From Superficieibacter sp. 1612_C1 (GTDB lineage Bacteria > Pseudomonadota > Gammaproteobacteria > Enterobacterales > Enterobacteriaceae): 64,000 nucleotides of DNA. Of the stretch, positions 38,280-56,972 are shown one piece after another. Every line of letters begins with the position of its first letter. Within the stretch, counting starts at the first letter, position 1. The translations under genes were made by a program, and so were the position numbers. Location of the stretch: positions 62,001 to 126,000 of the forward strand of contig NZ_JADGMI010000003.1 in the NCBI RefSeq assembly GCF_015234305.1. Reading direction: 5' to 3'. The notes below the pieces were generated by a model that was not told the DNA's origin, did not search any database, and saw only the letters and a program-made list of their open reading frames with translations.

Positions 38280-38290
38280 ATTTCGGTTCC

Positions 38291-39553
38291 TTATTTAACA
38301 GTGCTATTTTCAGCGACATCATATTTTGCTCGCCCCCGCGCCTGACAGGCGGAAAGCGTGAAAGCAGAAATAAACGTAAAGAACAGCGCCGTAGCTCCCA
38401 TAATGATATAGGTGTGCTCGAAGCCAATGCGGTCATACAATATGCCAGCCGGAGAAGAGACCACGACATTACCGACATACAGCATTGCCTGATAGCCGAG
38501 TAAATACATGGTGGCGTTAACGCGCTTATCGAAATGCTCCGCGATATATTTAAATACCGAGACCAGCAACAGACAAATCTCCAGACCGTAAAGCGGTTTG
38601 AGGATAGAAATCAGCAGGTGAGAATCACACAGTCCGGAAATAATCAGACGCGCGCCGACCAGCGCACCCACCAGCAGCAGACCGCGCTTCGCGCCGATAG
38701 CGTTGACGAAGAACGGAACCACCATATACATGATGAATTCCATGCCGGACTGCACCGTACCGAGGTAGCCGAAGATAGCGTTGCCCTGATGAATGTCATC
38801 AAAGAAGGTGACGAAATAGCGCGAGAACTGTTGCTCGGCAATAAACATCATCCACGCGACGCCTGCGACATACAGGCAAAAGGCCCAGAATTTGCGGCTT
38901 TTCAGCAGTTGCCAGACGTCAGCCGGCACAATTTTTTGTTTCGCCAGTACCTCGCCCGCCTGTGCCGAATTCACGTTGACCTTCAGGCTGATTAAGACGA
39001 TCAGCATAACGATCGACGCCACGCTGCCGAGGATAAAGTTATACGCCGGAGAGAGGTTAAACAGCAGTCCGGAGAACGAGGATGCCACCGCCCAGCCGAG
39101 CGATCCCCACATACGAATTTGACCGAATTCCATGCCGTTCAGGCGGCTAAAGCGGTCGGAGTAGGATTCGCAGGCGGCAACGCCAGCATACCAGGCGAAG
39201 CTCAGGTAAATCGCCCCGACGATAATGCCCGCCAGCGTATTCGAGATTAATAGCGGCTGGTAAACATAAATAAAGAACGGAGCCATTAGTGCCGATATAA
39301 TAACGACAAAATAGAGCAGATATTTACTCATGCCAATTTTATCGAGAATATAGCCGTAGATGGGCTTCAGGATCACCGAGAAGATACCGTTAACCGCGAA
39401 GACGGTGCCGATTTCAGTGCCGCTTAAATTCGCTTTTTGCCCTAGCCAGATTGCCAGCAGACCGATGCTCGCAGACCAGGTAAAAAAGTAGAGAAAGATA
39501 AAAGAGCTGATTTTGTAATATTCAGCTCTGTTTTTCGTTGGCGTATTTTCCAT
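38291..39553 (-). CDS. Oligosaccharide:H+ symporter (MFS, LacY-like)
   Basis: A 420-aa twelve-helix major-facilitator protein with an N-terminal LacY/OHS-like sequence (YKISSFIFLYFFTWSASIGLLAIWL, about 13-37) and loop motif KPIYGYILDKIGM (about 64-76). It keeps the overall length and helix spacing of the oligosaccharide:proton symporter group. Its place 11 bp before the GH88 gene and after the DUF2264 gene points to uptake of unsaturated di- or oligosaccharides. Substrate specificity cannot be told from sequence. Confidence 0.88.
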   Translation of the reverse strand: MENTPTKNRAEYYKISSFIFLYFFTWSASIGLLAIWLGQKANLSGTEIGTVFAVNGIFSVILKPIYGYILDKIGMSKYLLYFVVIISALMAPFFIYVYQPLLISNTLAGIIVGAIYLSFAWYAGVAACESYSDRFSRLNGMEFGQIRMWGSLGWAVASSFSGLLFNLSPAYNFILGSVASIVMLIVLISLKVNVNSAQAGEVLAKQKIVPADVWQLLKSRKFWAFCLYVAGVAWMMFIAEQQFSRYFVTFFDDIHQGNAIFGYLGTVQSGMEFIMYMVVPFFVNAIGAKRGLLLVGALVGARLIISGLCDSHLLISILKPLYGLEICLLLVSVFKYIAEHFDKRVNATMYLLGYQAMLYVGNVVVSSPAGILYDRIGFEHTYIIMGATALFFTFISAFTLSACQARGRAKYDVAENSTVK

Positions 39554-39678
39554 ACTTTCCTCGACGAAAATAGAGTAGATAGTAAAGTCAATGTGTTGGT
39601 TTTTTGCCGGGTCAGACCACCCTCACCGCGAGGGTGTGGGGGCGCGTAACTCATCATTGACCACAGCGTCGTATTCTT

Positions 39679-39770
39679 GTCGGATGGCGGCTTCGCCTTA
39701 TCCGACCTACAAAAACGTTCAGGCCATTCTCCAGCGTAGGCCCGGTAAGCGCAGCGCCACCGGGCAGGAC
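39679..39770. repeat. Two REP sequences between the MFS and DUF2264 genes
   Basis: TCGGATGGCGGCTTCGCCTTATCCGA (39679-39704) is a classic REP hairpin and GCGTAGGCCCGGTAAGC...CACCGGGC (39734-39768) a second. They stand in the 227-bp gap within an otherwise co-directional set of genes, so the MFS-GH88 pair may have its own promoter. Confidence 0.85.
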
Positions 39771-39780
39771 ATCGCCGGCC

Positions 39781-41607
39781 TCACAGCGGAATGACGACCC
39801 GCTTCCCGCTCGCGGGATCGGTTACGATCATCTGCTGGTTATCAATCGCCAGGTCCGGCACCTGCGCAAAGGTTTTACGGCTGTCGCCGCTGGCCGCCAC
39901 CGCACCATAGAGCCAGCTCACGCCCACCGGAACCTCGCCGCGCAACACAGGAATGGCAGCGCATTCGGCGAACATCACGCTGCTGTTCGGGGGAGTAATA
40001 ATGCAATCTGCCTGACGTTTTCCTTGCGCCGCAAGACAGCGGATGGTGCTGGCACCGTTCGCCGCCTGAATCAAACAGCCGTCATCCGTGAGCTGGTGTG
40101 CCGCTTTCATTACCGCAAAGCCCCCTTCCACGCTGGTTAACCGACGGGCACTGTCGATACGATGCACGCGCAGGTGCCACTCGCCGCAGGGGATAAGCCA
40201 GCTGTCGATATGAACATCGTTCCACGCAGACCAGCGCGAGAAGATAAAGTCCTCATGCACCTGTACCGCCTCACAGCCGCGGCGGCCGCGGAAGTAATCG
40301 TCGTTCTCGCTGAGCAGCAGCATATTGTCGCAGGCCGCGTGTTTAATCCCGTAGCGTCCGCGCTCGATGGTAAAACCGAAGCGGCTGGAGTAAGCGAATT
40401 TGGTGTATTTCGCCTCGGTATTGACGTAGTTGTTCAGCTCCAGCTGTCCGGAAGTCAGCATGACCACATGCTGCGATGCCTCACTATGCATCAGGATCTG
40501 CTGGGCATGAGCAATAGCGCGGGTCTCAGCCAGCTCCGGTAGCGCTTTCTCTTCCGCCTGCCAGAATGGATGCTCCGCAGGCAACGCAAGAATAAGGAAA
40601 ACCTTCAGCGCCCAGTACGGCGAGCCGGGCGAGTTGTAGTCTTCGCACATCGTCAGGTTGGGATAAGCGAACCCCAGCGTCAGAATGCCGTCGCGATCAA
40701 AAATCGGTTTATCCAGCCACCAGCGCAGATGGCGCAGGATCACGCCTTTAATTTCGCCCGGCGTGAGCACATCCAGCCCGGCAAACGCCACCGCGCTCCA
40801 GAAAGCGACCATCGCAAAGCGGTAGGTCAGGCTGCGGCCAAAGGGCACAGACGCACCATCTGCCGCCGACATATAGATAAAATCTTCGGCAAACCGACAT
40901 GAACGCTCGCGCAGCACGGCGGCGCGTTCGGGATCGTCTTCCGCATTCAGGGTGGCGTAAATCAGGCCGTAGAAATGAAACGCCATTGAGATGTAATAAT
41001 CTTTCGGTCTGCCGGGACCGTCTGAGTACCAGCCGTCGCCAAGATAGTAGGCTTCCATCTGGTTAAAGCGGCGCTCAACCGCCTGTTGATCCCACGGCAG
41101 CCCGGCACGCTTAAAGCCCAGTTGCACAATGATGGCGAAATAGTTCCAGTTACTGTCCGGCATTTCAGCATCGGTGATTTGATCCAGCCAGCGGTGTAAA
41201 TTGCGCAGCTCGCGCTCGCTAAAGACGTCGGTGAGCTTATCCTGTAACAGGGCAAGCCCCAGACCGTAGGCCGCCATCTCTACCAGCCGCTGATCGTAAG
41301 GCCCGGTTTCGCCCCAGTAGCCTGCATTTTCCGGGTCGGTACCCAGCCGGATGGCGTCGATATATTTCTTGCTCAACGTCGTTTCGACGCCGCCTGCCAG
41401 CAGTGGGAAAAGCCCCCACAACGCGCGTGACAGCCCCTCCATATTGGCGATCCCTACGTCATAATGCGCGCAGGTATTGCCCAGCGGAAACTGTGCGCTG
41501 TCGGCAGGAAATTGCTTATCCAGCGCGCCAAGCATTGAGACCAGCGCCGCGATAACGTCGTCGCGCGAAGACAACGATATTGATTTTTCTTTTGTCGCCG
41601 TAGTCAT
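39781..41607 (-). CDS. DUF2264 family protein (putative polysaccharide-degrading enzyme)
   Basis: The 608-aa protein belongs to the DUF2264 family of (alpha/alpha)-toroid proteins found in carbohydrate loci. Family-typical blocks are DVGIANMEGLSRALWGLFPLL (about 51-71), GYWGETGPYDQRLVEMAAYGLG, DSNWNYFAIIVQLG and DYYISMAFHFYGLIYA. No signal peptide is seen, so it is cytoplasmic. Linkage to GH88 and an oligosaccharide importer suggests action on uronic-acid oligosaccharides (as hydrolase or lyase), but no catalytic role is established from sequence here. It is divergent from the AraC-type gene with about 160 bp between. Confidence 0.82.
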   Translation of the reverse strand: MTTATKEKSISLSSRDDVIAALVSMLGALDKQFPADSAQFPLGNTCAHYDVGIANMEGLSRALWGLFPLLAGGVETTLSKKYIDAIRLGTDPENAGYWGETGPYDQRLVEMAAYGLGLALLQDKLTDVFSERELRNLHRWLDQITDAEMPDSNWNYFAIIVQLGFKRAGLPWDQQAVERRFNQMEAYYLGDGWYSDGPGRPKDYYISMAFHFYGLIYATLNAEDDPERAAVLRERSCRFAEDFIYMSAADGASVPFGRSLTYRFAMVAFWSAVAFAGLDVLTPGEIKGVILRHLRWWLDKPIFDRDGILTLGFAYPNLTMCEDYNSPGSPYWALKVFLILALPAEHPFWQAEEKALPELAETRAIAHAQQILMHSEASQHVVMLTSGQLELNNYVNTEAKYTKFAYSSRFGFTIERGRYGIKHAACDNMLLLSENDDYFRGRRGCEAVQVHEDFIFSRWSAWNDVHIDSWLIPCGEWHLRVHRIDSARRLTSVEGGFAVMKAAHQLTDDGCLIQAANGASTIRCLAAQGKRQADCIITPPNSSVMFAECAAIPVLRGEVPVGVSWLYGAVAASGDSRKTFAQVPDLAIDNQQMIVTDPASGKRVVIPL

Positions 41608-41770
41608 TGGTTTGTCCTCTACGAAAGTGGCTAAAGCATAGAGAATCGCGACCTCTCAGAAATGTTACCCACGTCACAACTGGATTATTTAACTGAACCA
41701 CCTATTGAGAAAATTTAAAATAGTGGTTTATTTATTAATTACAGGTCGTAAAAATTTAATTTGGTTGCAC

Positions 41771-42619
41771 ATGGGTGAGAACTGGAATGCTGAACGTCTG
41801 GAGCTGATTGCGCTGAACGATACCGTCGTGTCGTTTAGCCGCCTTTTTGCGAATACCGTTCGCTACCATCACTGGCATCAGTGTCTGGAAGTGCTGTATG
41901 TGGAGGAGGGTTTCGGCGTGGTAATGGTCAATAACCGCCAGTACACCATGCGGCCGGGGCGAATGTTTTTCTTTCCACCGTTTACCATTCATAAAGTGAT
42001 GGTGGACGAAAAGGCGCAGGAGAGCTATCGCCGGACCATCATTCACGTCGATCAGCATGTTATCGCCAAAACGCTGCGCGATTTTCCACAAAACCAGAGC
42101 TGGCTGCTGGCGCTCTCCGCGCGCGGCGGCCAGGCGTTTGTTGCCGATCTCAGCGAAATACATTCGCATCTTGATGCCCTGTTTAGCCGCTACGCGCAGA
42201 GGGCGGCGGAGACCGGTTTGAATACGGAAAATGTCGCCTGTCTGCTGATTATGTTATTCAGTATGCTGCCGCAGGATCGGGAGAAAATGCCGGAGAGCCA
42301 TCGGGGGATCGCCAGCGAGGTGATGTTCTGGCTGGAAGAGAATTATCGGCATAAGTTTAGTCTGGAGAGGCTGGCGCAGGATCTGCAAAAGTCACGCAGC
42401 TACGTCTCCCGCCGCTTTCATCTGGAAACGGGGGAGAATATTCATGACTATCTCAACACTATTCGCCTGCGCAAGGCCTGCGAACTGCTGCTACACAGCA
42501 CGTTAAGTATCGGCGACATCGCCTGTCAGGTCGGATTTTCTGATGTGACCTGGTTTATTACCTCCTTTAAAAAGGGAATTGGCGAGACGCCGCTCCAGTA
42601 CCGCAAAAATCACCGCTGA
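41771..42619 (+). CDS. AraC-family regulator of the oligosaccharide locus
   Basis: The 282-aa protein (start at MGENWNAERLE, 41771; an upstream ATG at 41705 adds residues that do not match the family) has an N-terminal cupin domain (YHHWHQCLEVLYVEEGFGVV and RPGRMFFFPPFTIHKVMV, about 29-80) that binds sugars in RhaS/MelR-like regulators. The C-terminal AraC HTH region has FSLERLAQDLQKSRSYVSRRFH and the signature IGDIACQVGFSDVTWFITSFKKGIGETPLQYR. Divergent position upstream of the DUF2264-MFS-GH88 genes makes it their likely activator. Confidence 0.9.
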   Translation: MGENWNAERLELIALNDTVVSFSRLFANTVRYHHWHQCLEVLYVEEGFGVVMVNNRQYTMRPGRMFFFPPFTIHKVMVDEKAQESYRRTIIHVDQHVIAKTLRDFPQNQSWLLALSARGGQAFVADLSEIHSHLDALFSRYAQRAAETGLNTENVACLLIMLFSMLPQDREKMPESHRGIASEVMFWLEENYRHKFSLERLAQDLQKSRSYVSRRFHLETGENIHDYLNTIRLRKACELLLHSTLSIGDIACQVGFSDVTWFITSFKKGIGETPLQYRKNHR

Positions 42620-42678: not shown

Positions 42679-42827
42679 CATATGGATGCATATATCCATT
42701 GCGACATATTTTTATACAAATGAAGCCCTTATACCGGAGAGTTATTTACTTTGGTCAAAAAAAGGGAGTGCCACATTGTGTATTATCACCCTCCCTCACT
42801 GGCATGACTTAAGACCTGTAATAAAAT

Positions 42828-43421
42828 ATGAATGCGGTATCTCCTGACACGCTGTTTTATCATGGCACGCCAATTTCGTCCCCATGGGAACTGACTGGCC
42901 TATTATTGCGCGATTTTTTCCATGCGGCAGACGCGGCGACGCTACGTCAGAGCCTCACCGCACTGAGCGCACTTTTTCCGCAGGAACAGCGCCTTATGCC
43001 TTCTCAGCCAGACTGGCGGGAGGTTGAATATGACTTTAACCGCCTGTTTGTTGGCCCACGTGCATTACTGGCAGCACCGTACTCCTCCGTATATCTGGAT
43101 AGCGAAACGCTGTTAATGGGGAAAAGTACTCAGCAGGTAAAAGAACTTTATCAGGCGCTCGGCCTGAGTATTGCAAATGAGAATCAAATACCCGAAGACC
43201 ATATTTCCTACGAAATAGAAACCTGCCTGCTGCTGGTGAAAAATAAATCCACCGATGCTGCTTATAACGCCCTGCAATGGTTTGTTACTGAGCATCTGGA
43301 TTTATGGCTCCCTCAGTTTGTAGAGAAAATAGCAAGCCATGCCTCAACACCCGCAATTAATGCCGTCGCAACCTTGCTCACCAATTGGTTTGGTGAATTA
43401 AAATCGAGAGTATTATTATGA
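42828..43421 (+). CDS. TorD/DmsD-family redox enzyme maturation chaperone
   Basis: The 197-aa all-helical protein belongs to the TorD/DmsD/NarJ group, which binds the twin-arginine signal of a molybdoenzyme and holds it until cofactor loading. Visible is the family segment YDFNRLFVGPRALLAAPYSSVYLD (about 67-90) and ISYEIETCLLLV (about 126-137). It overlaps the start of the molybdoenzyme gene by 4 bp, so it surely serves that enzyme. It leads the operon of 42.8-47.0 kb. Confidence 0.88.
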   Translation: MNAVSPDTLFYHGTPISSPWELTGLLLRDFFHAADAATLRQSLTALSALFPQEQRLMPSQPDWREVEYDFNRLFVGPRALLAAPYSSVYLDSETLLMGKSTQQVKELYQALGLSIANENQIPEDHISYEIETCLLLVKNKSTDAAYNALQWFVTEHLDLWLPQFVEKIASHASTPAINAVATLLTNWFGELKSRVLL

Positions 43422-45700
43422 GCAATGATTCCGGACGTCTAAACCGACGCTCCTTTTTAAAAGGACTCGCCACCCTGGGAGCGGCTTCCGCCCTGCCCGG
43501 CGGATTATTAACGTCTCGTTGTGCCTTAGCGCAACCGCCCATCCCGTTTAATCCTGATACTTATAAAATCTTCCGCAACGCCTGCCCGCGTAACTGTTAC
43601 GACACCTGTAGCCTGAAAACCTGGGTGAAAGATGGCGTCATTACCTATGTGGAAGGCGCGAAAGAGTCGACCTATACCCACGGGATGCCGTGCGTAAAAG
43701 GGCTGACCTACCCCCGCCGCGTTTACAGCCCGGACCGTATCAAATACCCGATGATCCAGGACGTGCGCGGCAGCGGCAACTGGCGGCGTATTTCGTGGGA
43801 AGAAGCGATGGATCGCATCGCGCGTAAGATCCTTGAAATTAAAAAGAAAGACGGTTCGCTGCTCGGTCTGGCAATGACCAAATATTCCGGCAAATTTGGC
43901 GTGCTGAACTATGCCGTGGAAGGGATGATGTCCTCTCTCGGTTACACCACCCGCTTTGCCGGTACGCCGTGCTGGCCTGCCGGTATCGACGCGCAGAACT
44001 ACGATATGGGCGATATGTGGTGTAACGACCCGGAAGATATGGTGAAGGCAAAGTACATCATCATCTGGGGCGGAAACCCGGCATGGTGCTCCATGCACTC
44101 CATGAAGTACATCTATCAGGCACGCGAGAAAGGCGCGAAGATCGTGGTTATCGATCCGCTGCTGTCGCAAACCGCGGCGAAAGCCGATCTTTACCTGCGC
44201 GTGCGTCCTGGCTCTGACGGCGCGCTGGCGCTGGGCATGGCGCGGCATCTGGTCGATAAGGGCCTGGTCGATCAGGATTTCGTTACCAACTACGCCCACG
44301 GCTATCCAGAATTCGAAGCCTACCTGCGCAATAACATCACCGTCGAATGGGCCGCGGGTATTTGCGGCCTCTCCGCCGACGTGATCCGTAACCTGGCGGA
44401 AGAGTTTACCGCGGTAAGCCCGGCGACCGTCTGGATTGGCTACGGCATGCAGCGCCACGTCAACGGCGGCGCTAACGTTCGCGCCATTGACGCCTTTGTC
44501 GCCATGACCGGCAATATCGGCGTGGAAGGCGGCGGTGCCCGCTACGGCCATCTGCATACCTGGGGCTTTAATTACAATGCCATGATGCAGAAGCCACCGG
44601 CAGGTTCGGTAGGGTTTGTCGGCGCGACAGGCGCGACCAGCGAATTTGGCGGCGGCGCTGAAGGCGGCGCGGAGGCGCAGTATTCCGACCGTTCGCTGAA
44701 CATTAACCAGACCGCGCAAAGTATTCTGGACGCCAGTGAGCCGCCGATCCGCATGCTGTGGGTAGCCTGTAAAAACCCCTTCTCCCAGGATTTCGACCGC
44801 AGCAAGATGGAAGAGGCGTTCGCCAAACTGGAGATGGTGGTCTGCGCCGAGCAGTTCTTCAACGAAACCGTCCAGCATGCCGATATTGTATTGCCGGTAA
44901 CGACCGCCTTTGAAGAGTGGAACGTTGATGCCTCTTACTGGCACTACTGGCTGTCGATTAACCAACCCGCCATTAAGCCGATGTACGAAGCAAAATGCGA
45001 TCTGGAGATCGCGGTACTGCTGTCGCGTACCATCAATAAGCTGGAGCCGGGTTCCTGCACCTTCCCGCAGGAGTTCGACCACAAGCGCTGGCTGGATCAG
45101 GAGTTTAACGACGGGATGGCGAAAATGTTCGGCATTTCCTCCTGGGATGACCTGCTGGACGGGCCGAAAAAAGCCATCATGCCCAGCACGGCGGCCTGGT
45201 ATGACCGCAAGTTCAAAACCCCGTCAGGCAAATACGAATTTAAATCCGAGCTGTGCGAGAAAAACGGTCACACCGCCCTGCCGGAGTACAAACCGGAAGC
45301 GCAAAGAACCCTGCCGTTCCACCTGTTTACGCCGCACGTCCAGTTCGGACTGCACTCGCAGTTCATTAACCTCGACTGGATGCAGGTGTTCTATCCGGAA
45401 CCGTTTGTCTATATGCACCCGGCGTCGGCGAAGAAAAAATCGATTGCCGAGGGCGATCTGGTCAAAGTCTTTAACGACACCGGCGACGTCGAACTGCGCG
45501 TGAAAGTGACCACCAACGTGCCGGAAGATTTCCTCGTGATGTACGAATCCTGGTTCCCGAAACGCAAATACAACGTGCAGAACGTGGTGGCTGACACCCC
45601 GGCCGATATGGGCCTGATGAAGACCGGCGCGCCGGGAGCCGCTATCCATAGCCAGTTTGCTGACATCGTATTGATCCGTAAGGGAGAGTCTGCCGCATGA
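43418..45700 (+). CDS. Tat-exported molybdopterin oxidoreductase, catalytic subunit (DMSO-reductase family)
   Basis: A 760-aa periplasmic enzyme of the DMSO reductase superfamily. It has a twin-arginine signal (NRRSFLKGLATLGAASALPG, about 9-28), a [4Fe-4S] motif CPRNCYDTCSL... to MPCVKG (about 55-93), and bis-MGD-binding segments (KYIIIWGGNPAWCSMHSMKY; IGYGMQRHVNGG; MLWVACKNPF). A Cys at residue 185 (TPCWPAG) lies where the molybdenum ligand is expected; DmsA has Ser there. The Gly-rich segment GGGAEGGAEAQ near residue 411 is unusual. With DmsB- and DmsC-like partners it forms a quinol-linked reductase; the substrate is unknown. Confidence 0.88.
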   Translation: MSNDSGRLNRRSFLKGLATLGAASALPGGLLTSRCALAQPPIPFNPDTYKIFRNACPRNCYDTCSLKTWVKDGVITYVEGAKESTYTHGMPCVKGLTYPRRVYSPDRIKYPMIQDVRGSGNWRRISWEEAMDRIARKILEIKKKDGSLLGLAMTKYSGKFGVLNYAVEGMMSSLGYTTRFAGTPCWPAGIDAQNYDMGDMWCNDPEDMVKAKYIIIWGGNPAWCSMHSMKYIYQAREKGAKIVVIDPLLSQTAAKADLYLRVRPGSDGALALGMARHLVDKGLVDQDFVTNYAHGYPEFEAYLRNNITVEWAAGICGLSADVIRNLAEEFTAVSPATVWIGYGMQRHVNGGANVRAIDAFVAMTGNIGVEGGGARYGHLHTWGFNYNAMMQKPPAGSVGFVGATGATSEFGGGAEGGAEAQYSDRSLNINQTAQSILDASEPPIRMLWVACKNPFSQDFDRSKMEEAFAKLEMVVCAEQFFNETVQHADIVLPVTTAFEEWNVDASYWHYWLSINQPAIKPMYEAKCDLEIAVLLSRTINKLEPGSCTFPQEFDHKRWLDQEFNDGMAKMFGISSWDDLLDGPKKAIMPSTAAWYDRKFKTPSGKYEFKSELCEKNGHTALPEYKPEAQRTLPFHLFTPHVQFGLHSQFINLDWMQVFYPEPFVYMHPASAKKKSIAEGDLVKVFNDTGDVELRVKVTTNVPEDFLVMYESWFPKRKYNVQNVVADTPADMGLMKTGAPGAAIHSQFADIVLIRKGESAA

Positions 45701-46254
45701 GACGCGCATTTTTAGTTAACAGTGACAAATGTATTGGCTGTCGCGGCTGTGCGATGGCATGTAAGAGCTTTAACCATCTGGAGCCGGACAATTTCTGGCG
45801 CTATGTCTACCCGCTGGACAAAGCCATTTTCCCCCACGAAGAACGTGCATTTTATTCGCTCGCCTGTAACCACTGCGAAAATCCGGCCTGCGTCGAAGCC
45901 TGCCCGGTCGGGGCCTATCATCGCCGCGAAGATGGCATCGTGGTCCATGAGCAGGAACTCTGCATCGGCTGTAAAAACTGCATTCGTAGCTGTCCTTATG
46001 GCGCGCCGCGTTTCAACGAAGAATTGAAGAAGAGTGAAAAATGCAGCATGTGCTATGAGCGCCAGGATATCGGCATGAACCCGGCCTGCGTCGATGCCTG
46101 CCCGGTTGGTGCGCTGACCATTATCGATCTGGAAAGTAACGATCTGCCGACCAACGCGGTGCAGTACCCGCCGGGATATCCGCAGATGCCGAAGCTGAAC
46201 CCAGGAACGCGCTTTATTCTGGCGCACGAGCCAAAACAGCCGGGAGATAAATAA
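45697..46254 (+). CDS. DmsB-like iron-sulfur electron-transfer subunit
   Basis: The 185-aa ferredoxin-type subunit carries four cysteine clusters: CIGCRGCAMACKSF (about 9-22), CNHCENPACVEACPVGA (about 58-74), CIGCKNCIRSCPYGAPRF (about 89-106) and CSMCYERQDIGMNPACVDACPVGAL (about 116-140). This is the four-cluster pattern of DmsB/NrfC/PhsB-type subunits that carry electrons from the membrane anchor to the molybdenum subunit. It has no signal peptide and would be co-exported with the catalytic subunit. Start overlaps the previous stop by 4 bp; stop overlaps the anchor gene by 1 bp. Confidence 0.93.
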   Translation: MRRAFLVNSDKCIGCRGCAMACKSFNHLEPDNFWRYVYPLDKAIFPHEERAFYSLACNHCENPACVEACPVGAYHRREDGIVVHEQELCIGCKNCIRSCPYGAPRFNEELKKSEKCSMCYERQDIGMNPACVDACPVGALTIIDLESNDLPTNAVQYPPGYPQMPKLNPGTRFILAHEPKQPGDK

Positions 46255-47021
46255 TGGAAAAGTACGAATTACCGCTGGTCATCTTTACCGTCTTAAGCCA
46301 GACCTCCGTCGGCATGGCGCTGGTACTGACCTGGCGGACCTTTAAGGGTGAAATCGAAGGTAGCCGTATTCACTGGCTGATTACCGGTCTGGTGCTGGGT
46401 GCGGCGTCCGTGGCTGCGGTGCTGCATCTGGCGCATCCGATGTATGCCTATAACGCCCTGCGCGGCCTGCCACACGCGTGGCTGAGCCGGGAAATCCTCG
46501 GCGCAACCCTGTACGGCGCGGCTATCGGCATTACCTTCCTGGCGAAGGGACATAAAATTCCCGCTCTGCTCGCTTCGCTGCTGGGCATCGCGCTGGTGGC
46601 GGTGCAGGGAATGACCTATGCCGCTCCCGCCATGATGGCTATCGCCAACGGCATGACGATGCTGTTCTTCTTTCTCACCGTCTGGGTGGTGGGCTGCGCC
46701 GCCATTCCGCTGCTGAAGATGAATGCACCGGTTCCGGCGCTGCGTCAGGGCATTCTGATGTTCATTGTGGCGATGATCGCCGCCCCGCTGGTCTGGACCA
46801 GCGGCGGCACCATCATGAAAATGACCGCCAGTACCTGGCTGACCTCGCCGCTGTATCTGGCAAGCCTGGTGTGCTTTATCGTCGCGTTTATCCTGACGCG
46901 CAAAAATGCGGTGATGCCAAAAAGTACGTTGCTGCTGGTGCTGGTGGCAGTACTCCTCAGCCGGTTGACCTTCTTTGGCGACACGGTGAGTTCCATCGTC
47001 AACATTGGTCATCTGTATTAA
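46254..47021 (+). CDS. DmsC-like membrane anchor subunit
   Basis: The 255-aa protein has eight predicted transmembrane helices and the DmsC family pattern (LPLVIFTVLSQTSVGMALVL at the N-terminus; LVLGAASVAAVLHLAHP; SREILGATLYGAAIG; LLLVLVAVLLSRLTFF at the C-terminus). DmsC-type anchors bind quinol in the inner membrane and pass electrons to the iron-sulfur subunit. It is the last gene of the molybdoenzyme operon; a strong terminator follows. It completes a DmsABC-like reductase, with TorD-like chaperone at the front. Confidence 0.92.
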   Translation: MEKYELPLVIFTVLSQTSVGMALVLTWRTFKGEIEGSRIHWLITGLVLGAASVAAVLHLAHPMYAYNALRGLPHAWLSREILGATLYGAAIGITFLAKGHKIPALLASLLGIALVAVQGMTYAAPAMMAIANGMTMLFFFLTVWVVGCAAIPLLKMNAPVPALRQGILMFIVAMIAAPLVWTSGGTIMKMTASTWLTSPLYLASLVCFIVAFILTRKNAVMPKSTLLLVLVAVLLSRLTFFGDTVSSIVNIGHLY

Positions 47022-47043
47022 TCAAACGATGGCAGTAAACCTC

Positions 47044-47078
47044 GCTCCCCGCTGCGGCTGGGGAGCAGGCTTTTTTTA
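47044..47078 (+). terminator. Terminator between the reductase and hydrogenase genes
   Basis: GCTCCCC (47044-47050) pairs with GGGGAGC (47060-47066) and is followed after AGGC by seven Ts (47071-47077). It lies 22 bp after the DmsC-like stop and 25 bp before hypA. So hydrogenase genes rely on read-through or on their own promoter. Confidence 0.88.
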
Positions 47079-47102
47079 CTCAATTTCTGCGAAATACGGC
47101 AA

Positions 47103-47444
47103 ATGCATGAACTGACGCTGGCGCTCAATATTGTTCAGATACTCGAAGAACAGGCGCTAAGCCGGAATTTTAACCGGGTTAAGCAGGTCTGGCTGGAGAT
47201 GGGCGCGATGAGCTGCGTTGAGGAAACCTCGCTACGCTTTGGCCTCGCGTCCGCTACCCGCAACACGCTGGCAGACGGCGCGCAATTCCATATTGCCCAT
47301 ACGCCGGGTCGTGGCTGGTGTCACCACTGCTGTCAGGTATTTGAAACCCGTCAACCCGTAACGCACTGCCCGCGATGTCATTCCGTGCAAATCCAGCACG
47401 AACCGTCGGACGCGCTACGCATCCGCGAGCTGGAAGTTGAGTAA
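47103..47444 (+). CDS. hybF: Hydrogenase nickel-insertion protein HypA/HybF
   Basis: This 113-aa HypA-family protein delivers nickel to the large subunit with HypB. The N-terminal MHELTLALNIV contains the Ni-binding Met1-His2-Glu3 motif, and the zinc site is CHHCCQVF...CPRCHSVQ (about 74-96). It precedes the small subunit gene by 78 bp, whereas in E. coli hybF lies near the operon end. Because the family is shared by all [NiFe] hydrogenases, hypA is an equally correct name; hybF is chosen by operon membership. Confidence 0.9.
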   Translation: MHELTLALNIVQILEEQALSRNFNRVKQVWLEMGAMSCVEETSLRFGLASATRNTLADGAQFHIAHTPGRGWCHHCCQVFETRQPVTHCPRCHSVQIQHEPSDALRIRELEVE

Positions 47445-47522
47445 CGTAAACCCCTTTTGAAATTATCGTCTTATTAATCAGCGTCATATTCAGCTCATTA
47501 ATAATATCCTGGAAAATAAACC

Positions 47523-48653
47523 ATGAGTGAACGAGAGAATACGTTCTTGAGCGAGGGCGTCAGCCGTCGTAGTTTTATCACGCTCTGTACCGCGCTGGCA
47601 GCCTCGTTGGGGCTAAGCGGAAAAGCCTCCGCGCAGATTGCCGGGGCGCTGACCTCTCCTTCCCGTCCGCCGGTTATCTGGATTGGCGCGCAGGAGTGTA
47701 CCGGCTGCACCGAATCGCTGCTGCGGGCGACGCATCCCACCGTTGAGAACCTGGTCCTCGACGTTATCTCGCTGGAGTATCACGAAGTGCTCTCCGCCGC
47801 CTTCGGGCAGCAGGCGGAAGAGAATAAGCACAACGCCATTGAACGCTACAAGGGCCAGTACGTTCTGGTCGTTGACGGCTCGATCCCGCTGAAAGACGGC
47901 GGCATTTACTGCATGGTCGCCGGGAAGCCGATCGCTGAACATATCCGCGAGGTGGCTGCCAACGCCAGCCACGTGATTGCGATTGGCTCCTGCGCGGCGT
48001 GGGGCGGCGTACCCGCTTCCGGCTGTAACCCGACCGGCGCGGTGTCGCTTCAGGAGGTCATCCCGGATATTCCGGTGATCAACATTCCGGGCTGCCCGCC
48101 GAATCCGCATAACTTTCTCGCCACCGTGGCGCATCTCATCACCTTTAACCGCGCGCCGAAGCTGGACGATAAACGTCGTCCCACCTTTGCCTATGGTCGC
48201 CTGATCCACGAAAACTGCGAGCGCCGCCCACACTTTGACGCCGGGCGCTTTGCCAAAGCGTTTGGTGACGAAGGCCACCGTCAGGGCTGGTGCCTCTACC
48301 ATCTCGGCTGTAAAGGCCCGGAGACCTACGGCAACTGTTCCACGCTGGAGTTCTGCGACGTCGGCGGCGGTATCTGGCCGGTGGGTATCGGGCATCCATG
48401 CTACGGCTGTAACGAAAAAAATATCGGCTTCACCAAAGGCATTGCCCAGTTAGCCAATGTCAGCCAGCCGACGCCGCGTGCGGAAGTACCGGACGTGAAG
48501 CGCACGGAAGGCGGCGCGGTTTCCCTCAGCGCTACCGGGCTGCTGGGCGCAGTCATTGGTGCTGTAGGCGGCGTCAGCGTCATGGCGGTGAAGCAACTGG
48601 GACAACCGCGGACGACGGCTGAAAAAGACGCAGAGACGGAGGAGCGGTCTTGA
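47523..48653 (+). CDS. hybO: [NiFe] hydrogenase-2 small subunit
   Basis: The 376-aa small subunit has a Tat signal ([20 protein letters not shown], about 14-33) and a C-terminal transmembrane helix ([17 protein letters not shown]). Cluster ligands are ECTGCTES (proximal), [17 protein letters not shown], then [17 protein letters not shown] and HPCYGCNEK. The proximal motif is CTGCT with Gly, not the extra-Cys CTCCT of oxygen-tolerant Hyd-1, so an oxygen-sensitive uptake or bidirectional enzyme is expected. It is close to E. coli HybO throughout. It starts the block hybO-A-B-C-D-E-G, with coupled starts from here to hybC. Confidence 0.95.
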
Positions 48654-49660
48654 ACAGACGTCACTTTTTCAAAGTTGCCTCCGGCGGGCTGCTGCTGGCC
48701 GGGGTCGCGCCGGGCCTTCGTGCCGCAGAACAGCCGCGTCAGGCGGCCCCTGGTGCGGTCGGAATGCTGTTCGACTCCACGCTGTGCGTGGGATGTCAGT
48801 CCTGCGTGACCAAATGTCAGCAGATCAATAATCCGGGCGCTGCGGATTACCGTCCCGACGACAACAGTGCTAACAACACCACCTCATCGGTTAACGATAA
48901 GCTCAGCGCCCGGACCAATAACATCATCCAGATCTGGCGCAGCGGTAACGGCGAGCATAAAAACCAGCTTCAGGACGGGTACGCGTTTATCAAAAAGCAG
49001 TGTATGCACTGCGTTGATCCGAACTGTGTCTCCGCCTGCCCGGTCTCGGCGCTGCAAAAAAACGCCGCTACCGGCATCGTTGAATACAATCCCGACGCCT
49101 GTACCGGCTGCCGCTACTGCATGGTCGCCTGCCCGTATAACGTGCCGAAATATGATTACAGCGATCCCTTCGGCGCGATCCATAAATGCGAACTGTGCAA
49201 CCAGAAAGGCGTGGAACGGCTGGACAAAGGCCAGTTGCCCGGCTGCACCGAAGTCTGCCCCACCGGGGCGGTGATCTTCGGCACCCGCGACGCGCTGCTG
49301 AAAGAGGCAAAAGCCCGTCTGGCACTTAAACCCGGTTCACGTTACGACTATCCGCGCCAGCAGGTCGGCAGCAAGGACACGTATTCGCAGACCGTTGCGC
49401 AGTATCAATCGTCGGTGTATGGCGAAATCGAAGGCGGCGGTACGCAGGTGCTGGTGCTCTCCGCCATTCCTTTTCAGAAGTTCGGCCTGCCCGCGCTGGG
49501 ACCACAATCTACCGGCTCCCGCGCCGAGCACGTCCAGCATACGTTGTACAAAGGCATGATGCTGCCAGCCGCAGCGCTGGCGGGCATCACCTGGCTGGTC
49601 CACCGCAACAACAAGCATCACGACGCCGCGCCGTCTGAAGAGGAGAACTCCCATGAGTGA
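48650..49660 (+). CDS. hybA: Hydrogenase-2 iron-sulfur subunit HybA
   Basis: The 336-aa ferredoxin-type subunit links the hydrogenase dimer to the quinone-reacting membrane protein HybB. It has a Tat signal ([20 protein letters not shown]), four-cluster cysteine motifs ([55 protein letters not shown]...CTEVCPTGA) and a C-terminal membrane helix ([16 protein letters not shown]) that tail-anchors it. This matches E. coli HybA along its length. It overlaps hybO by 4 bp and hybB by 8 bp. Confidence 0.95.
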
Positions 49661-50822
49661 TCATACTCATGCGCTCCGTCCGCTGGGCGGAAAGCTGTTT
49701 ACCCGCGCCATTTATCTGTTCGCGCCGTTTGCGGCGATCTGCGGTCTGCTGATCGTCAAACGTCTGGTAATGGGAATGGGCGATGTCACGGCGCTGAACG
49801 GTGGCTATCCGTGGGGGGTGTGGATATCCTTCGATTTACTGGTCGGCACCGGCTTCGCCTGCGGCGGCTGGGCGATGGCGTGGGCGGTGTATGTGTTTAA
49901 CCGCGGCGATTATCACGATCTGGTCCGCCCGGCGCTGCTCGCCAGTCTGTTCGGCTACGGCCTTGGCGGATTGTCGATCACCATCGATCTGGGACGTTAC
50001 TGGAATGTGCCGCACTTCTTAATGCCCGGCTATTTCAATACCAACTCGGTGCTGTTTGAAACCGCCGCCTGTATGACGGTGTACATCGGCATTATGTCGC
50101 TGGAGCTGCTGCCCGCGCTGCTTGAGCGTCTGGGCTGGCACGTTCCTTTGCGTAAGCTGAACCGCGCGATGTTTATTTTCATCAGCATCGGCGCGCTGCT
50201 GCCCTGTATGCACCAGTCGTCAATGGGCTCACTAATGATGATTGCCGGGTATAAGGTGTATCCGCTGTGGCAAAGCTACGAGTTTCTGCCGCTGTTTTCT
50301 CTGCTGACCGCCTTTCTGATGGGCTTCTCAATCGTGATTTTTGAAGGATCGCTACTGAGAGCCAGCGCCACCTTTACCACCGACGAAACGCCGTTGTTCA
50401 GCAAACTTAGCCAGGTCATTAAGGCGCTGCTGTGGATCTTCGTCGTACTGCGCGTCGGCGAGATTATCTGGCGCGGCAAGCTCGGACTGGTGCTAATGGG
50501 TAACGGCTATGCCTGGCTGTTTATCATTGAGCTGGCGCTGTTCATCCTTCCGCTGCTGATTTTGCATTCCGGCAAACTTCGCCGCAGTCCGCGTGCGCTG
50601 TTTCTGTGTGCGCTCTCCGTGCTGCTCGGCGCGGCGATGTGGCGCATTGATTATTCCCTTGTCGCCTTTGATCCGGGCAATGGCTATCACTATTTTCCGA
50701 CCGCCAGCGAACTATTGATTTCCATCGGCTTTGTGGCGATTGAAGTTGTTGCTTACATCCTGATTATTCGTCTGCTGCCGATTTTACCGGCCAAAGCAGC
50801 CACTGTTGAGGTAAAACCATGA
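49653..50822 (+). CDS. hybB: Hydrogenase-2 integral membrane subunit HybB (NrfD family)
   Basis: The 389-aa protein has about ten transmembrane helices of the NrfD/PsrC family, the quinone-interacting membrane subunit of Hyd-2. Characteristic segments are [33 protein letters not shown] (about 50-82; given here as positions with key residues W55, D61, G66) and a conserved His/Gln pocket in [12 protein letters not shown]. HybB enables Hyd-2 to reduce the menaquinone pool or run in reverse with proton motive force. It has 4-bp and 8-bp overlaps with neighbours. Confidence 0.94.
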
Positions 50823-52519
50823 GTCAACGTATCACCATTGATCCTGTAACGCGTATTGAAGGTCATCTGCGGATCGACTGTGAAATTGAAGATGGCAAAG
50901 TGGTGAAAGCCTGGTCGTCCGGCACCATGTGGCGCGGGATGGAAGAGATCGTCAAGGGGCAGGACCCGCGCGACGCGTGGATTATCGTCCAGCGTATTTG
51001 CGGCGTGTGCACCACAATCCACGCCATCGCCTCGGTGCGCGCGGTGGAGAATGCGCTGCAAATGGAGATCCCTCTGAACGCGCAGTATATTCGCAACCTG
51101 ATCCTCGCCGCGCACCAGATCCACGATCATATCGTGCATTTTTACCAGCTCTCCGCGCTCGACTGGGTGGATATTACCGCCGCCCTGAAGGCCGATCCGG
51201 CCAAAGCGGAAGCGATGCTGAAAAACGTTTCAAGCTGGCCGCTGAACAGCGCCGCCGAATTCACCCGCGTGCAGCACAAAATTCAGGCGCTGGTGGACAG
51301 CGGGCAACTGGGGATCTTCGCTAACGGTTATCAGGGCCACCCGGAAATGAAACTGTCGCCGGAAGTGAACCTGATTGCGGTCGCGCACTACTTGCAGGCG
51401 CTGGAGTGTCAGCGCGACGCCAACCGCATCGTGGCGATCCTCGGCGGCAAAACGCCGCATATCCAGAACCTCGCCGTCGGCGGCGTGGCGAACCCAATCA
51501 ATACCGATTCCCCTGGCGTTCTCAATCTGGAACGCCTGATGTACGTGAAATCGTTTATCGACAAGCTGAGCGATTTTATTGAGCAGGTTTATAAAGTCGA
51601 CGCGGCGATTTTTGCCGCCAGCTACCCGGACTGGATGAAACTGGGCAAAGCGGCGGATTACTACCTGGCGGTGCCGGACATGCCGGTCAGCCGTAGAGGC
51701 GACGTTTTCCGCATTCCCGGCGGCTATATGAAAGGCACGGATTTTTCCACCTTCCAGCCCATCGCCTCTCATACCGATCCGTTCCTGATTAACGGTATTG
51801 AGGAGAGTGGCAAGCACGCCTGGTACAAAGATAACGATCCGCAAAAACCGTGGCAGGGCACCACCATCCCGGACTTCACCGACTGGCAGGAAGACGGTAA
51901 ATACTCCTGGGTGAAAGCGCCGACCTTCTACGGCAAAACCGTGGAAGTGGGGCCGCTGGCGTGGCTGCTGTGCGGTCTGGCGTCGAAACACACGGGCACC
52001 GTGACGCATTATGACAGTATTGCCGCGCAGTACCAGGCGCTGACCGGCACCGCGCTCACCCATGATGCGCTGCAATCGACCTGGGGCCGTATTCTCGGCC
52101 GCGCGGTGCGGACTTCCGTGCTGTGTGACGAACTTCAGGCGCAGTATCAACTGCTGGTGGACAACATCGCCAAAGGCGATTGCGAAACCTTTATCAAGCC
52201 GGTGTTCCCGGAAGGCGAGCTTCGCGGCGTCGGTTTTGAAGAAGCCTCTCGCGGCATGCTGTCGCACTGGATCGTCATCAAGGACGGCAAAATTGCCAAC
52301 TATCAGGCGGTGGTGCCGTCAACCTGGAACGCCGGGCCGCGCAATTTCAATGATGAACCGGGGCCGTATGAGCGCGCGCTGATCGGCACGCCAGTCGTTG
52401 ATGCGCAAAAACCACTGGAAGTGGTGCGCACCGTTCACTCGTTCGATCCGTGCATGTCCTGCGCGGTCCACATGGTGGATTTACGCGGCAAGACGTTAAG
52501 TAAGGTGAAAATTCTGTAA
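50819..52519 (+). CDS. hybC: [NiFe] hydrogenase-2 large subunit
   Basis: The 566-aa large subunit holds the Ni-Fe(CN)2CO centre. The two ligand pairs are visible: RICGVC (about 59-64) and DPCMSCAVH near the C-terminus. The 15 residues after that His are a cleavable maturation peptide like that of E. coli HybC, removed by HybD. The N-terminal RITIDPVTRIEGHLRI is the family start. It travels to the periplasm with the Tat-signalled small subunit, since it has no signal itself. Length and sequence are close to E. coli HybC (567 aa). Confidence 0.96.
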   Translation: MSQRITIDPVTRIEGHLRIDCEIEDGKVVKAWSSGTMWRGMEEIVKGQDPRDAWIIVQRICGVCTTIHAIASVRAVENALQMEIPLNAQYIRNLILAAHQIHDHIVHFYQLSALDWVDITAALKADPAKAEAMLKNVSSWPLNSAAEFTRVQHKIQALVDSGQLGIFANGYQGHPEMKLSPEVNLIAVAHYLQALECQRDANRIVAILGGKTPHIQNLAVGGVANPINTDSPGVLNLERLMYVKSFIDKLSDFIEQVYKVDAAIFAASYPDWMKLGKAADYYLAVPDMPVSRRGDVFRIPGGYMKGTDFSTFQPIASHTDPFLINGIEESGKHAWYKDNDPQKPWQGTTIPDFTDWQEDGKYSWVKAPTFYGKTVEVGPLAWLLCGLASKHTGTVTHYDSIAAQYQALTGTALTHDALQSTWGRILGRAVRTSVLCDELQAQYQLLVDNIAKGDCETFIKPVFPEGELRGVGFEEASRGMLSHWIVIKDGKIANYQAVVPSTWNAGPRNFNDEPGPYERALIGTPVVDAQKPLEVVRTVHSFDPCMSCAVHMVDLRGKTLSKVKIL

Positions 52520-53007
52520 TGAATACCCTGCTGCTTGGCGTCGGTAACCTTCTGCTCAGCGACGAAGGTGTCGGCGTGCGGACTCTTGAAGCGCTGGAGC
52601 AGCGCTTCCTCTTTCCCGACGGCGTGGTGCTTCAGGATGGCGGCACTTCGGGTATGGAACTGCTGGAGGTGATGGCCAGCCGCGATCTGATCGTGGTGGT
52701 CGATGCGGTTCAAAGTGACAGTGAGGCCGGGAGCCTGTTTATTCTTGAGGATAACGACGTTCCCGCGTACTTCACCCAACGGCTTTCGCCGCACCAGCTC
52801 GGGCTGGCAGACGTGCTGATGGCGCTGCAAATGACCGACGAGTTCCCGCGCAAGCTGGTTCTGCTGGGCATTGAGCCTGCGTCGCTTGCGCCGGGCATGG
52901 TACTCAGCCCGGTGGTGGTCCTGGCAATGGAAGCCGCCATCGCTCAGGTTATCCGCATTCTGAATAACCACGGTATCACCGTTAGTCCGCGTGAGGGCAA
53001 TTCATGA
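52519..53007 (+). CDS. hybD: Hydrogenase-2 maturation endopeptidase HybD
   Basis: The 162-aa protease removes the C-terminal peptide of HybC after nickel insertion. Nickel-sensing acids are present: Glu16 in LLSDEGVGVRTLE, Asp in VVVDAVQSDSEAG and His in SPHQLGLADVL. It is the same length as E. coli HybD (about 164). Its start overlaps the hybC stop by 1 bp. Confidence 0.94.
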   Translation: MNTLLLGVGNLLLSDEGVGVRTLEALEQRFLFPDGVVLQDGGTSGMELLEVMASRDLIVVVDAVQSDSEAGSLFILEDNDVPAYFTQRLSPHQLGLADVLMALQMTDEFPRKLVLLGIEPASLAPGMVLSPVVVLAMEAAIAQVIRILNNHGITVSPREGNS

Positions 53008-53495
53008 CTGATAAATACAGTGAAGGCTATGCCACCGATCCGTCGGCCCTGCTTGAACAGGTTTTTCAGCAGGTGGCGGAAAGCAGTATGGTCGGCCTGC
53101 CCTTTTACCGTCCGCAACTGCCGGTCAAAGCCTGCGCCTTTCAGCTATTTGAGGGCCAGTGGTTTGGCGCGCTGCTGACGCCGTGGATGCTACAGCTCAT
53201 GCTGCTGCCGGGGCCGGGGCAGCGCTGGGCCTGCCGACGCACTGACGAACGTCTGGCGCTCACCTTTCCGCAGGGCGATATGGCGTTTCGTCCCGGTGAG
53301 ATCGCGCCAGATCTCTATTACCTGTCGTGTTCACTAATGTCGCCCATCGATCCGGCACTGAGCGCGGAACAGGCGCTGACGCTGGCGCAAAACAGCGTCA
53401 GGCTGGCGCTCTCCTTGCCGGTACGCAATGCGTCCGGGATTAACGCCGGACGCCGGGCGCTGCTGCGCGGCACGCTTTCTGGCAATAAGGATTAA
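53004..53495 (+). CDS. hybE: Hydrogenase-2 assembly chaperone HybE
   Basis: The 163-aa protein is HybE, which binds the Tat signal of HybO and keeps the small subunit in the cytoplasm until the large subunit is mature. The HupJ/HybE pattern is visible in [18 protein letters not shown] (about 30-47) and the conserved [14 protein letters not shown] (about 57-70). It overlaps hybD by 4 bp. Confidence 0.92.
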
Positions 53496-53497
53496 CA

Positions 53498-53746
53498 ATG
53501 TGCATTGGCGTACCAGGAAAAATTGTTGCGGTGGGCGATTCGATTCACGAACCGGCGTGGGTGGAAATTAACGCCATCAGGAGACAAGTCAATCTTGCCC
53601 TGATTTGCGAAAATTCGCCGCAGGAACTGCTGGGCTGTTGGGTTCTGGTTCACGTCGGTTTTGCGATGAGCATTATTGATGAGCAAGAGGCCGACAATAT
53701 TATGGAAATGCTGAAAAAAATCACCGGGGAAGCGATTATTCCCTGA
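53498..53746 (+). CDS. hybG: Hydrogenase maturation chaperone HybG (HypC family)
   Basis: The 82-aa HypC-family protein carries the Fe(CN)2CO precursor to HybC with HypD. The N-terminal [13 protein letters not shown], with the essential Cys2, and the core [19 protein letters not shown] are present. An internal Cys at GCWVL is an extra one relative to E. coli HybG (GQWVL). It follows hybE by 2 bp and is the last hydrogenase-specific gene. Confidence 0.93.
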
Positions 53747-53806
53747 ATGTCGACACAACGCTGCCGCCCGATACGCGGCATATTTTACTGACTATAAGGT
53801 TTCATC

Positions 53807-54025
53807 ATGGGCGAAATTAGCGTTACCAAATTATTAGTGATTGTGGTGCTGATGGTACTGGTTTTCGGCACCAAAAAACTCAGCTCCCTGGGGTCCGATC
53901 TCGGGTCGGCGCTGAAAGGGTTTAAGAAAGCGATGGGCGACAACGATAGCGCATCTCAGGATGCCGACTTTCTCAATGAACAAAAAGTCGGCAAAGAAAC
54001 CGCCAGCAAATCGGAACAGGCATAA
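53807..54025 (+). CDS. TatA/TatE-family translocase subunit linked to the hydrogenase
   Basis: The 72-aa protein has the TatA/E pattern: a short N-terminal helix beginning [21 protein letters not shown], the FGTKKL hinge (about 21-26) and an amphipathic helix ([18 protein letters not shown]), followed by a polar tail. The start MGEIS is TatE-like. It lies 60 bp after hybG on the same strand and 2 bp before a TatB-like gene. I infer a dedicated supply of Tat pore subunits for the Tat-exported proteins of this cluster. No tatC is in the window. Confidence 0.92.
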
Positions 54026-54027
54026 CC

Positions 54028-54375
54028 ATGTTTGGCTTCGGCTTTGGGGAACTGCTGCTGGTGTTTGTCATCGGGCTGATCGTCTTAGGCCCGACACGTC
54101 TGCCGGTGGTCGTTAAAACGGTGATATCGTGGATCTCGACCCTCCGCTCGCTGGGTCAGTCGTTACAGAATGAACTGACTCAGGAGCTAAAAGTGATGGA
54201 ATTACAGGATAAGCTGAAACACCTGGAATCCCTGAGCGCGGAAAACCTGACACCAGAGTTAAAAACGTCGCTGGACGCGCTGCGTCAGGCAACGGACGCG
54301 CTGCGACGGCCTGTTGAGCTGGATATCATTCCGGCACCCACAATCGGCAAAGTGCAGCCGGTGTCAGAGGAGTGA
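54028..54375 (+). CDS. Short TatB-like translocase subunit
   Basis: The 115-aa protein begins [26 protein letters not shown], with the TatB hallmarks: conserved acidic residue in the transmembrane helix (GELLLV), the GP hinge and RLPVVVKT. The amphipathic region [21 protein letters not shown] follows (about 48-64). E. coli TatB has about 171 aa, so the C-terminal tail here is shortened. TatB with TatC recognises twin-arginine signals; this copy could tune selection of the cluster's substrates. The gene ends in a hairpin that contains the stop codon in its loop. Confidence 0.88.
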
Positions 54376-54390: not shown

Positions 54391-54396
54391 GGCAAG

Positions 54397-54967
54397 GATG
54401 CCTGGCGGCGCTTTGCTTGCGCAGGCCTACGGAATGCGGATAACACGTTGATATTGATGTATTTTGTAGGCCGGGTAAGGCGAAGCCGCCACCCGGCATT
54501 ACGCGGTGCCAATGATGCCTGGCGGCGCTTCGCTTGCGCAGGCCTACGGAATGCGAATAACCCATTGATATTGATGTATTTTGTAGGCCGGGTAAGGCGA
54601 AGCCGCCACCCGGCATTACGCGGTGCCAATGATGCCTGGCGGCGCTTCGCTTGCGCAGGCCTACGGAATGCGGATAACACGTTGATATTGTGGCACCGCG
54701 TAGGCCGGGTAAGGCGAAGCCGCCACCCGGCATTAAGCGGTGCCAATGATGCCTGGCGGCGCTTCGCTTGCACAGGCCTACGGAATGCGGATAACACGTT
54801 GATATTGTGGCACCGCGTAGGCCGGGTAAGGCGAAGCCGCCACCCGGCATTACGCGGTGCCAATGATGCCTGGCGGCGCTTCGCTTGCACAGGCCTACGA
54901 AATGCGGATACACGTTGATATTGTGGTACCGCGTAGGCCGGGTAAGGCGAAGCCGCCACCCGGCATT
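54397..54967. repeat. Tandem BIME/REP array: 4.9 copies of a 117-bp unit
   Basis: The motif GATGCCTGGCGGCGCTT starts at 54397, 54514, 54631, 54748 and 54865, so the period is exactly 117 bp. Each unit holds two REP halves: GCCTGGCGGCGCTT...AGGCCTAC and GTAGGCCGGGTAAGGCGAAGC...CCCGGCATT. The spacers vary slightly between units (for example TATTTTGTAGG against GGCACCGCGTAGG). The fifth unit is shortened. Open frames across it on the minus strand are artefacts of the repeat. It forms the right border of the insertion. Confidence 0.95.

Positions 54968-55052: not shown

Positions 55053-56972
<1,920 letters not shown>

Follow-up and report, generated by a model that had tools for sequence, protein, structure and literature searches.

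In enterobacteria, the twin-arginine translocation (Tat) system is commonly regarded as a single machine for general export. In Bacillus subtilis, the genes for TatAdCd lie beside phoD and hence adjoin the gene of their substrate; this pair has its own TatC, a phosphatase as client and a Gram-positive host, and differs in these points from the locus described here. Likewise, the operon of an anaerobic respiratory enzyme can contain an extra Tat component: it has been shown that tatA2 of Campylobacter jejuni lies in the nap operon and that its deletion cuts NapA activity by about half, with no demonstration of specificity for Nap (PMC4148689). At least two tatC loci were reported for 39 species (~5%) in a survey in whose main text the word hydrogenase is absent (PMC3827258), and the literature searched, a partial collection, describes no Tat genes inside a hydrogenase operon. 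The closest hydrogenase system is the Escherichia coli hydrogenase-2 operon, hybOABCDEFG, in which hybF follows hybE. Here we describe a gene block, hereafter the cassette, in a 64,000-nucleotide stretch (the window) of Superficieibacter sp. 1612_C1, located on contig 11 of this 5.05-Mb genome (G000; G, L and P denote genomes, fetched loci or contigs, and protein clusters, respectively). The cassette encodes the same hydrogenase subunits and maturation proteins as the E. coli operon but has a HypA/HybF-type gene ahead of hybO and, unlike that operon, is preceded by a reductase operon and followed by two Tat genes. Four relatives (L059-L062) likewise have a HypA-type gene before hybO, although there it is on the opposite strand. 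In C. jejuni, the extra component of the nitrate reductase operon is a TatA paralogue alone, whereas the cassette encodes a TatE-type protein plus TatB, and its counterpart in Kluyvera ascorbata has tatABC.

The cassette occupies positions 42828 to 54375 of the window, which are filled by 14 plus-strand open reading frames (ORFs) in the order chaperone, molybdoenzyme subunits A, B and C, HypA, HybO-A-B-C-D-E-G, TatA-type protein and TatB; they are flanked by an AraC-type gene on the left and parE on the right (Table 1). Profile scores confirm the gene content given in the initial annotation, namely a DmsABC-like reductase with its chaperone, a complete hydrogenase-2 set and a TatA/E plus TatB pair. 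The structural proteins HybO, HybA, HybB and HybC all exceed the curated NCBIfam cut-offs within one gene run (714, 504, 558 and 1078 bits against 659, 263, 450 and 969), as do HybD (211 against 190), HypA (92.2 against 88.1), HybE (196 against 188) and HybG (120 against 115). HybC contains RICGVC and DPCMSC, which we take to represent the [NiFe] ligand motifs RxCGxC and DPCxxC. The three twin-arginine signals noted earlier were all read in the sequence: LNRRSFLK in subunit A, SRRSFI in HybO and NRRHFF in HybA. On balance, we favor the view that this is a hydrogenase-2 block, likely H2-consuming, whose terminal TatE-like and TatB proteins are predicted to dock on the only TatC of the host and to serve there as the receptor for the twin-arginine proteins of the cassette. 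We infer that HybO/HybC would oxidize H2 and that the electrons would pass via HybA/HybB to quinone, from which the neighboring Cys-class molybdoenzyme would deliver them to an acceptor. The clients of the Tat pair would be HybO-HybC, HybA and the A-B dimer, and the two Tat proteins would enter the shared TatC complex by exchange.

This view requires that the pair works with components of the host. The genome encodes a single TatC, on contig 17 beside a TatA and a TatB, and a TatE on contig 1. Because this tatC lies outside the cassette, the Tat pair can work only with the host TatC, as had been proposed. Besides HybC, one further protein of the genome, a frame of 573 aa on contig 14, matches the family of [NiFe] large subunits; the run that contains it reads by eye as a hyc cluster and also includes hypB, hypD, hypE and the beginning of an fhlA-like frame, of which the hypE frame, the only one scanned, gave AIRS domains in a Pfam scan. 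Since tatC and hypB, hypD and hypE are on other contigs, the block depends on the host for TatC, HypB, HypD and HypE, and the description of the cassette as self-contained had to be abandoned. The cassette HybO is the only HybO-type match in the genome (E up to 1e-60), so that the cassette is the only uptake-type hydrogenase found.

The TatA-type protein passes the tatAE cut-off (63.5 bits against 53.9) and scores best against TatE (89.2 bits, just under the cut-off of 92), and its core is equally near to the TatA and the TatE of its own genome (35 of 48 each). According to PMC5777986, TatE is marked by a Glu residue in position 2 or 3 together with Lys in position 8; the E3/K8 signature is present in all four cassette TatA-type proteins and in none of 29 housekeeping TatA rows. 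The cassette TatB scores 88.2 bits against the TIGR01410 cut-off of 56.5 and retains the conserved amino half, including E8 and the G-P turn, but is short: it has 115 aa, whereas two housekeeping TatBs are 183 and 175 aa long. The four cassette TatBs form one clade in a tree of 36 rows (support 100/100). It has also been reported that E. coli TatE, like TatB, contacts the signal peptide and sits close to TatB on TatC (PMC5777986). A TatE-TatB pair may thus be what re-equipping a shared TatC would need.

The same genes are present in K. ascorbata ATCC 33433, with a tatC. Contig L069 carries chaperone-A-B-C-hypA-hybO-hybA-hybB-hybC and residues 1-77 of hybD, and contig L006 begins at hybD residue 82 and continues with hybE-hybG-tatA-tatB-tatC, in which tatB and tatC overlap; we infer that the two contigs join within hybD to give one block. 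The outer genes (acetyltransferase, DUF480, YceM-type and MurJ on one side, DUF1439 and amidohydrolase on the other) match E. coli rimJ-yceH-yceM-murJ and yceB-pyrC, between which E. coli has grxB and mdtH; the block is at a different chromosomal locus from the araC-parE site of Superficieibacter. Clusters P0010 (cassette-type TatB) and P0242 (cassette-type TatC, 88%) both list a largest contig of 288,021 bases, which suggests one further complete set. The K. ascorbata cassette TatC groups with Kluyvera-type housekeeping TatC (98/94; 95/94 without the distant rows); given its long branch and an unresolved fork, this grouping only hints at a duplication within the family. The single member of cluster P0243, a TatC of 302 aa, contains an internally repeated stretch of ~45 residues, perhaps an assembly error. 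At the block in the window, G183 and G262, no tatC or tatC remnant was detected. The earlier claim of a tatAB pair lacking its own tatC thus holds for these three genomes and fails for K. ascorbata, where tatC adjoins tatB in the same gene set.

That tatC follows tatB in K. ascorbata, together with the lack of any tatC remnant in the three other genomes and the repeat array that takes its place in the window, would fit a pair that is a functionless leftover of a complete tatABC cassette after the loss of tatC. We regard such a relic as improbable, because both Tat genes are intact in all three genomes and show low dN/dS ratios (nonsynonymous to synonymous substitution rates, calculated pairwise among the window, G183 and G262 with our own Nei-Gojobori script): 0.11-0.18 (TatA-type gene) and 0.08-0.15 (tatB), at dS 0.4-0.9. 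These ratios resemble those of the maturation genes (0.14-0.17 for hypA, 0.17-0.21 for hybE) and exceed those of the enzyme genes hybO and hybC (0.03-0.05). Both Tat genes are under purifying selection.

The distribution of the cassette was studied in draws of 295 family genomes (four of the window genus), 394 order genomes and 10 genomes of the K. ascorbata genus. Cassette-type TatB was found in three of the 295 family genomes, all of the window genus (83-100% identity, E < 1e-57; next match 66%), in one order-draw genome, which is that of the window, and in one of the 10 genomes of the K. ascorbata genus; identity across the four carriers is 76-100%. In all four genomes, whose context is readable, its gene directly follows hybG. 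The pair is hence tied to the hydrogenase, and a pair apart from a hydrogenase was not seen in the four carriers; nine further TatB clusters (P0003-P0011; 68-75% identity) are listed without genomic context. Within the genus, three of the four genomes drawn, including that of the window, carry the cassette. The fourth, G056, has neither a HybO-type match nor an extra TatB, and represents an empty site: its AraC-type frame ends 6 bases from parE, and both flanks align to the window. The hydrogenase block is apparently movable. No cassette-type TatB was found on plasmids (23 of 72,556 records match TatB, with a best identity of 63%, and the 20 matches listed all begin at residue 22). The 11.5-kb cassette query has matches in 261 of 5,426 E. 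coli genomes, in no case over 80% of its length, and the 20 matches listed are confined to hybO (8% of the query).

Several observations weigh against a dedicated role of the pair. Of the 83 family genomes (of 295) that have a HybO-type match, 80 lack the cassette-type pair, and housekeeping TatA, TatB and TatE could do the job. The signal peptides of the cassette HybO proteins look ordinary; a special version was considered and rejected, since four operons without Tat genes likewise have T in place of K behind the SRRxF core. In C. jejuni, tatA2 contributed only in part to the export of NapA (PMC4148689). Finally, a terminator-like hairpin precedes the Tat pair in three genomes, so that the pair may be weakly expressed. 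This hairpin is alike in the window, G183 and G262, its stem is not seen in K. ascorbata, and folding of the hybG-Tat gap is more stable than that of shuffled sequences only in G262 (z -2.13, against -0.70 in the window, 0.22 in G183 and 0.86 in K. ascorbata).

The ordinary HybO signal peptides, the conserved amino half of TatB with E8 and the G-P turn, and the C. jejuni tatA2 precedent, which is not Nap-specific (PMC4148689), would also be expected if the additional TatE-type protein and TatB simply raised the amount of translocase and thereby served all Tat substrates alike. Such a general boost of capacity seems to us rather unlikely, as two genera have the pair together with hyb, each at a different chromosomal site, and its TatB forms a clade of its own. 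It should be noted that shared regulation alone could keep the pair beside hyb, which makes the argument from linkage a weak one. With regard to the hydrogenases of relatives, the hybO matches of G014, G167 and G028 are split in two pieces or contain a stop, and hydrogenase-2 may be broken in some of them.

Extra Tat genes linked to a substrate were also observed elsewhere in the order. Ten order-draw genomes besides that of the window list two or three TatB matches; these and G028 were searched again, and 10 regions from eight genomes were fetched, G358 and G435 being left out. By tblastn, no hyb gene was found in the 10 regions, except for a 55-residue HybA match (E 0.001) in L116. PhoX (Pfam) adjoins the extra Tat genes in L108 and L111, and a protein with the same start does so in L110, L112 and L116. 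These five loci, from two other families of the order, include tatC only in L111; the other four lack it. Their TatBs are 28-34% identical to the cassette TatB in four tblastn rows and 48% identical over 31 residues in the fifth. These loci display, independently, the same pattern as the cassettes, a substrate-linked tatAB with or without tatC, for a substrate unrelated to hydrogenase. One genome, G508, has three TatB matches (contigs 26, 40 and 64), and the copy on contig 64 has no TatA or TatC alongside by tblastn.

As for the molybdoenzyme, subunit A scores far below the curated DmsA/YnfE cut-off (282 bits against 778) and subunit B below that of DmsB (148 against 214), while subunit C passes Pfam DmsC and the chaperone passes Pfam Nitrate_red_del. 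In a six-protein alignment, Cys185 of subunit A falls in the same column as Ser of a DmsA and Cys of a NapA, and it is also aligned onto Cys173 of Thermus polysulfide reductase; we take all three residues to be Mo ligands. Cys185 is kept in four homologues in this alignment and in eight rows of a second one. In a pairwise alignment with the Rhodobacter dimethyl sulfoxide (DMSO) reductase (1eu1), Ser147 of the latter falls on Thr177 rather than Cys185, and the assignment of Cys185 to the Mo-ligand column is hence likely but not beyond doubt. Judged by this likely ligand column, the enzyme would not be a DMSO reductase of the Ser type. Thiosulfate, polysulfide, nitrate or a compound of their class would be a more likely acceptor than DMSO. 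An AlphaFold2 model of subunit A (eight rows, 89-90% identical to the query) had a mean pLDDT of 29 and was useless.

Subunit A was found in 10 family genomes, beside hyb in three and away from it in seven, of which six have a HybO-type match elsewhere and one has none. Together with the hairpin that separates the two operons in the window, this means that reductase and hyb do not generally form the single unit initially supposed. Among the best 120 of 1520 relatives of subunit A, those at 89-90% identity carry Citrobacter and Salmonella names. The Salmonella/Citrobacter operon, presumably STM0611-type, has this type of subunit A and, in G227, the same chaperone-A-B-C order; there it lies downstream of apparent ahpC and ahpF genes, a position that presumably corresponds to Salmonella STM0610-0613, and the 18 kb examined contain neither hyb nor Tat genes. 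STM0611 is listed as a predicted Tat substrate in PMC3027627. A Tat pair that mainly serves the neighboring molybdoenzyme rather than the hydrogenase would be in keeping with their presence in the same block and with the twin-arginine signal and chaperone of subunit A. The Tat genes lie at the hyb end, however, and no Tat gene is found beside the stand-alone reductase operons L063 and L064, making this the most improbable of the readings that we considered.

If the view of a receptor docking on the host TatC is correct, it can tentatively be extended to a swappable Tat receptor: the TatE-TatB pair might dock on the shared TatC and retune it for the cofactor-loaded hydrogenase and reductase, with TatC as a common core for operon-specific pairs and the Kluyvera tatABC as the fully private version. 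With one version of the block encoding its own TatE-TatB and a sister also encoding TatC, it becomes possible to test specialization of the Tat receptor for cofactor-containing, tail-anchored enzymes such as HybO. The same clients combined with a private (Kluyvera) or shared (Superficieibacter) TatC constitute a natural experiment, and the cassette bears on the question of what TatE-type proteins are for.

Table 1. Features of the cassette and its flanks (window positions)
Feature	Position	Strand	Basis
AraC-type regulator, left flank, outside cassette	41705..42619	+	ORF, family score, congener comparison
Predicted promoter: FNR-like site 42745-42758 (3 mismatches), -10-like TATTAT 42781-42786	42745..42786	+	pattern match only
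TorD/DmsD-like maturation chaperone	42828..43421	+	profile scores
Molybdoenzyme catalytic subunit A, twin-arginine signal, Cys185 at likely Mo-ligand column	43418..45700	+	scores, alignments
DmsB-like ferredoxin subunit	45697..46254	+	profile score
DmsC-like membrane anchor	46254..47021	+	Pfam
Terminator-like hairpin and T run, between reductase and hyb operons	47044..47066	+	folding
HypA/HybF-type nickel chaperone, ahead of hybO	47103..47444	+	profile scores
HybO, hydrogenase-2 small subunit, twin-arginine signal, hydrophobic C-terminal tail	47523..48653	+	profile score, signal reading
HybA ferredoxin subunit, twin-arginine signal, TTG start	48650..49660	+	profile score, signal reading
HybB membrane subunit	49653..50822	+	profile score
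HybC, hydrogenase-2 large subunit	50819..52519	+	profile score
HybD maturation protease	52519..53007	+	profile score
HybE assembly chaperone	53004..53495	+	profile score
HybG (HypC-type) chaperone	53498..53746	+	profile score
Terminator-like hairpin ahead of Tat pair	53762..53780	+	folding
TatA-type protein, TatE signature E3/K8, 72 aa	53807..54025	+	scores, alignment
TatB, short form, 115 aa, cassette-specific clade	54028..54375	+	score, tree
117-bp REP-like tandem array, 4.9 copies, where K. ascorbata has tatC	54393..54967	+	repeat analysis
parE (presumed), right flank	55053..56945	-	name by neighborhood

Upstream of the chaperone gene, an FNR-like site (2-3 mismatches) is separated from a TATTAT box by 21-22 bases in all four cassettes, a pattern that simple shuffles of the four stretches reproduce in 53-68 of 2000 cases per stretch (53 for the window); this spacing is not kept in the two stand-alone reductase operons tested. 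In the gap between subunit C and hypA, folding is more stable than that of shuffled sequences in the window (z -2.35), strongly so in G183 (-4.25), less in G262 (-1.38) and not in K. ascorbata (-0.56), and a full T run follows the hairpin in the window only. With hairpins of varying strength at both internal gaps, a single operon from chaperone to tatB is not assured. The units of the array that follows tatB match each other at 95% and give four Rfam naRNA4 matches far below the cut-off; related repeats are present at the same place in L058. The G+C content is 57.0% in the cassette, 53.8% in the window, and 52.6% and 55.5% in the left and right flanks, respectively; base composition is a weak mark of transfer. 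On the left, the AraC-type gene adjoins a cluster at 37089-41607 (a DUF2264 protein, a transporter resembling galactoside permease and an ORF of 396 aa that matches no NCBIfam family), which resembles a sugar uptake cluster and is also present in G056.

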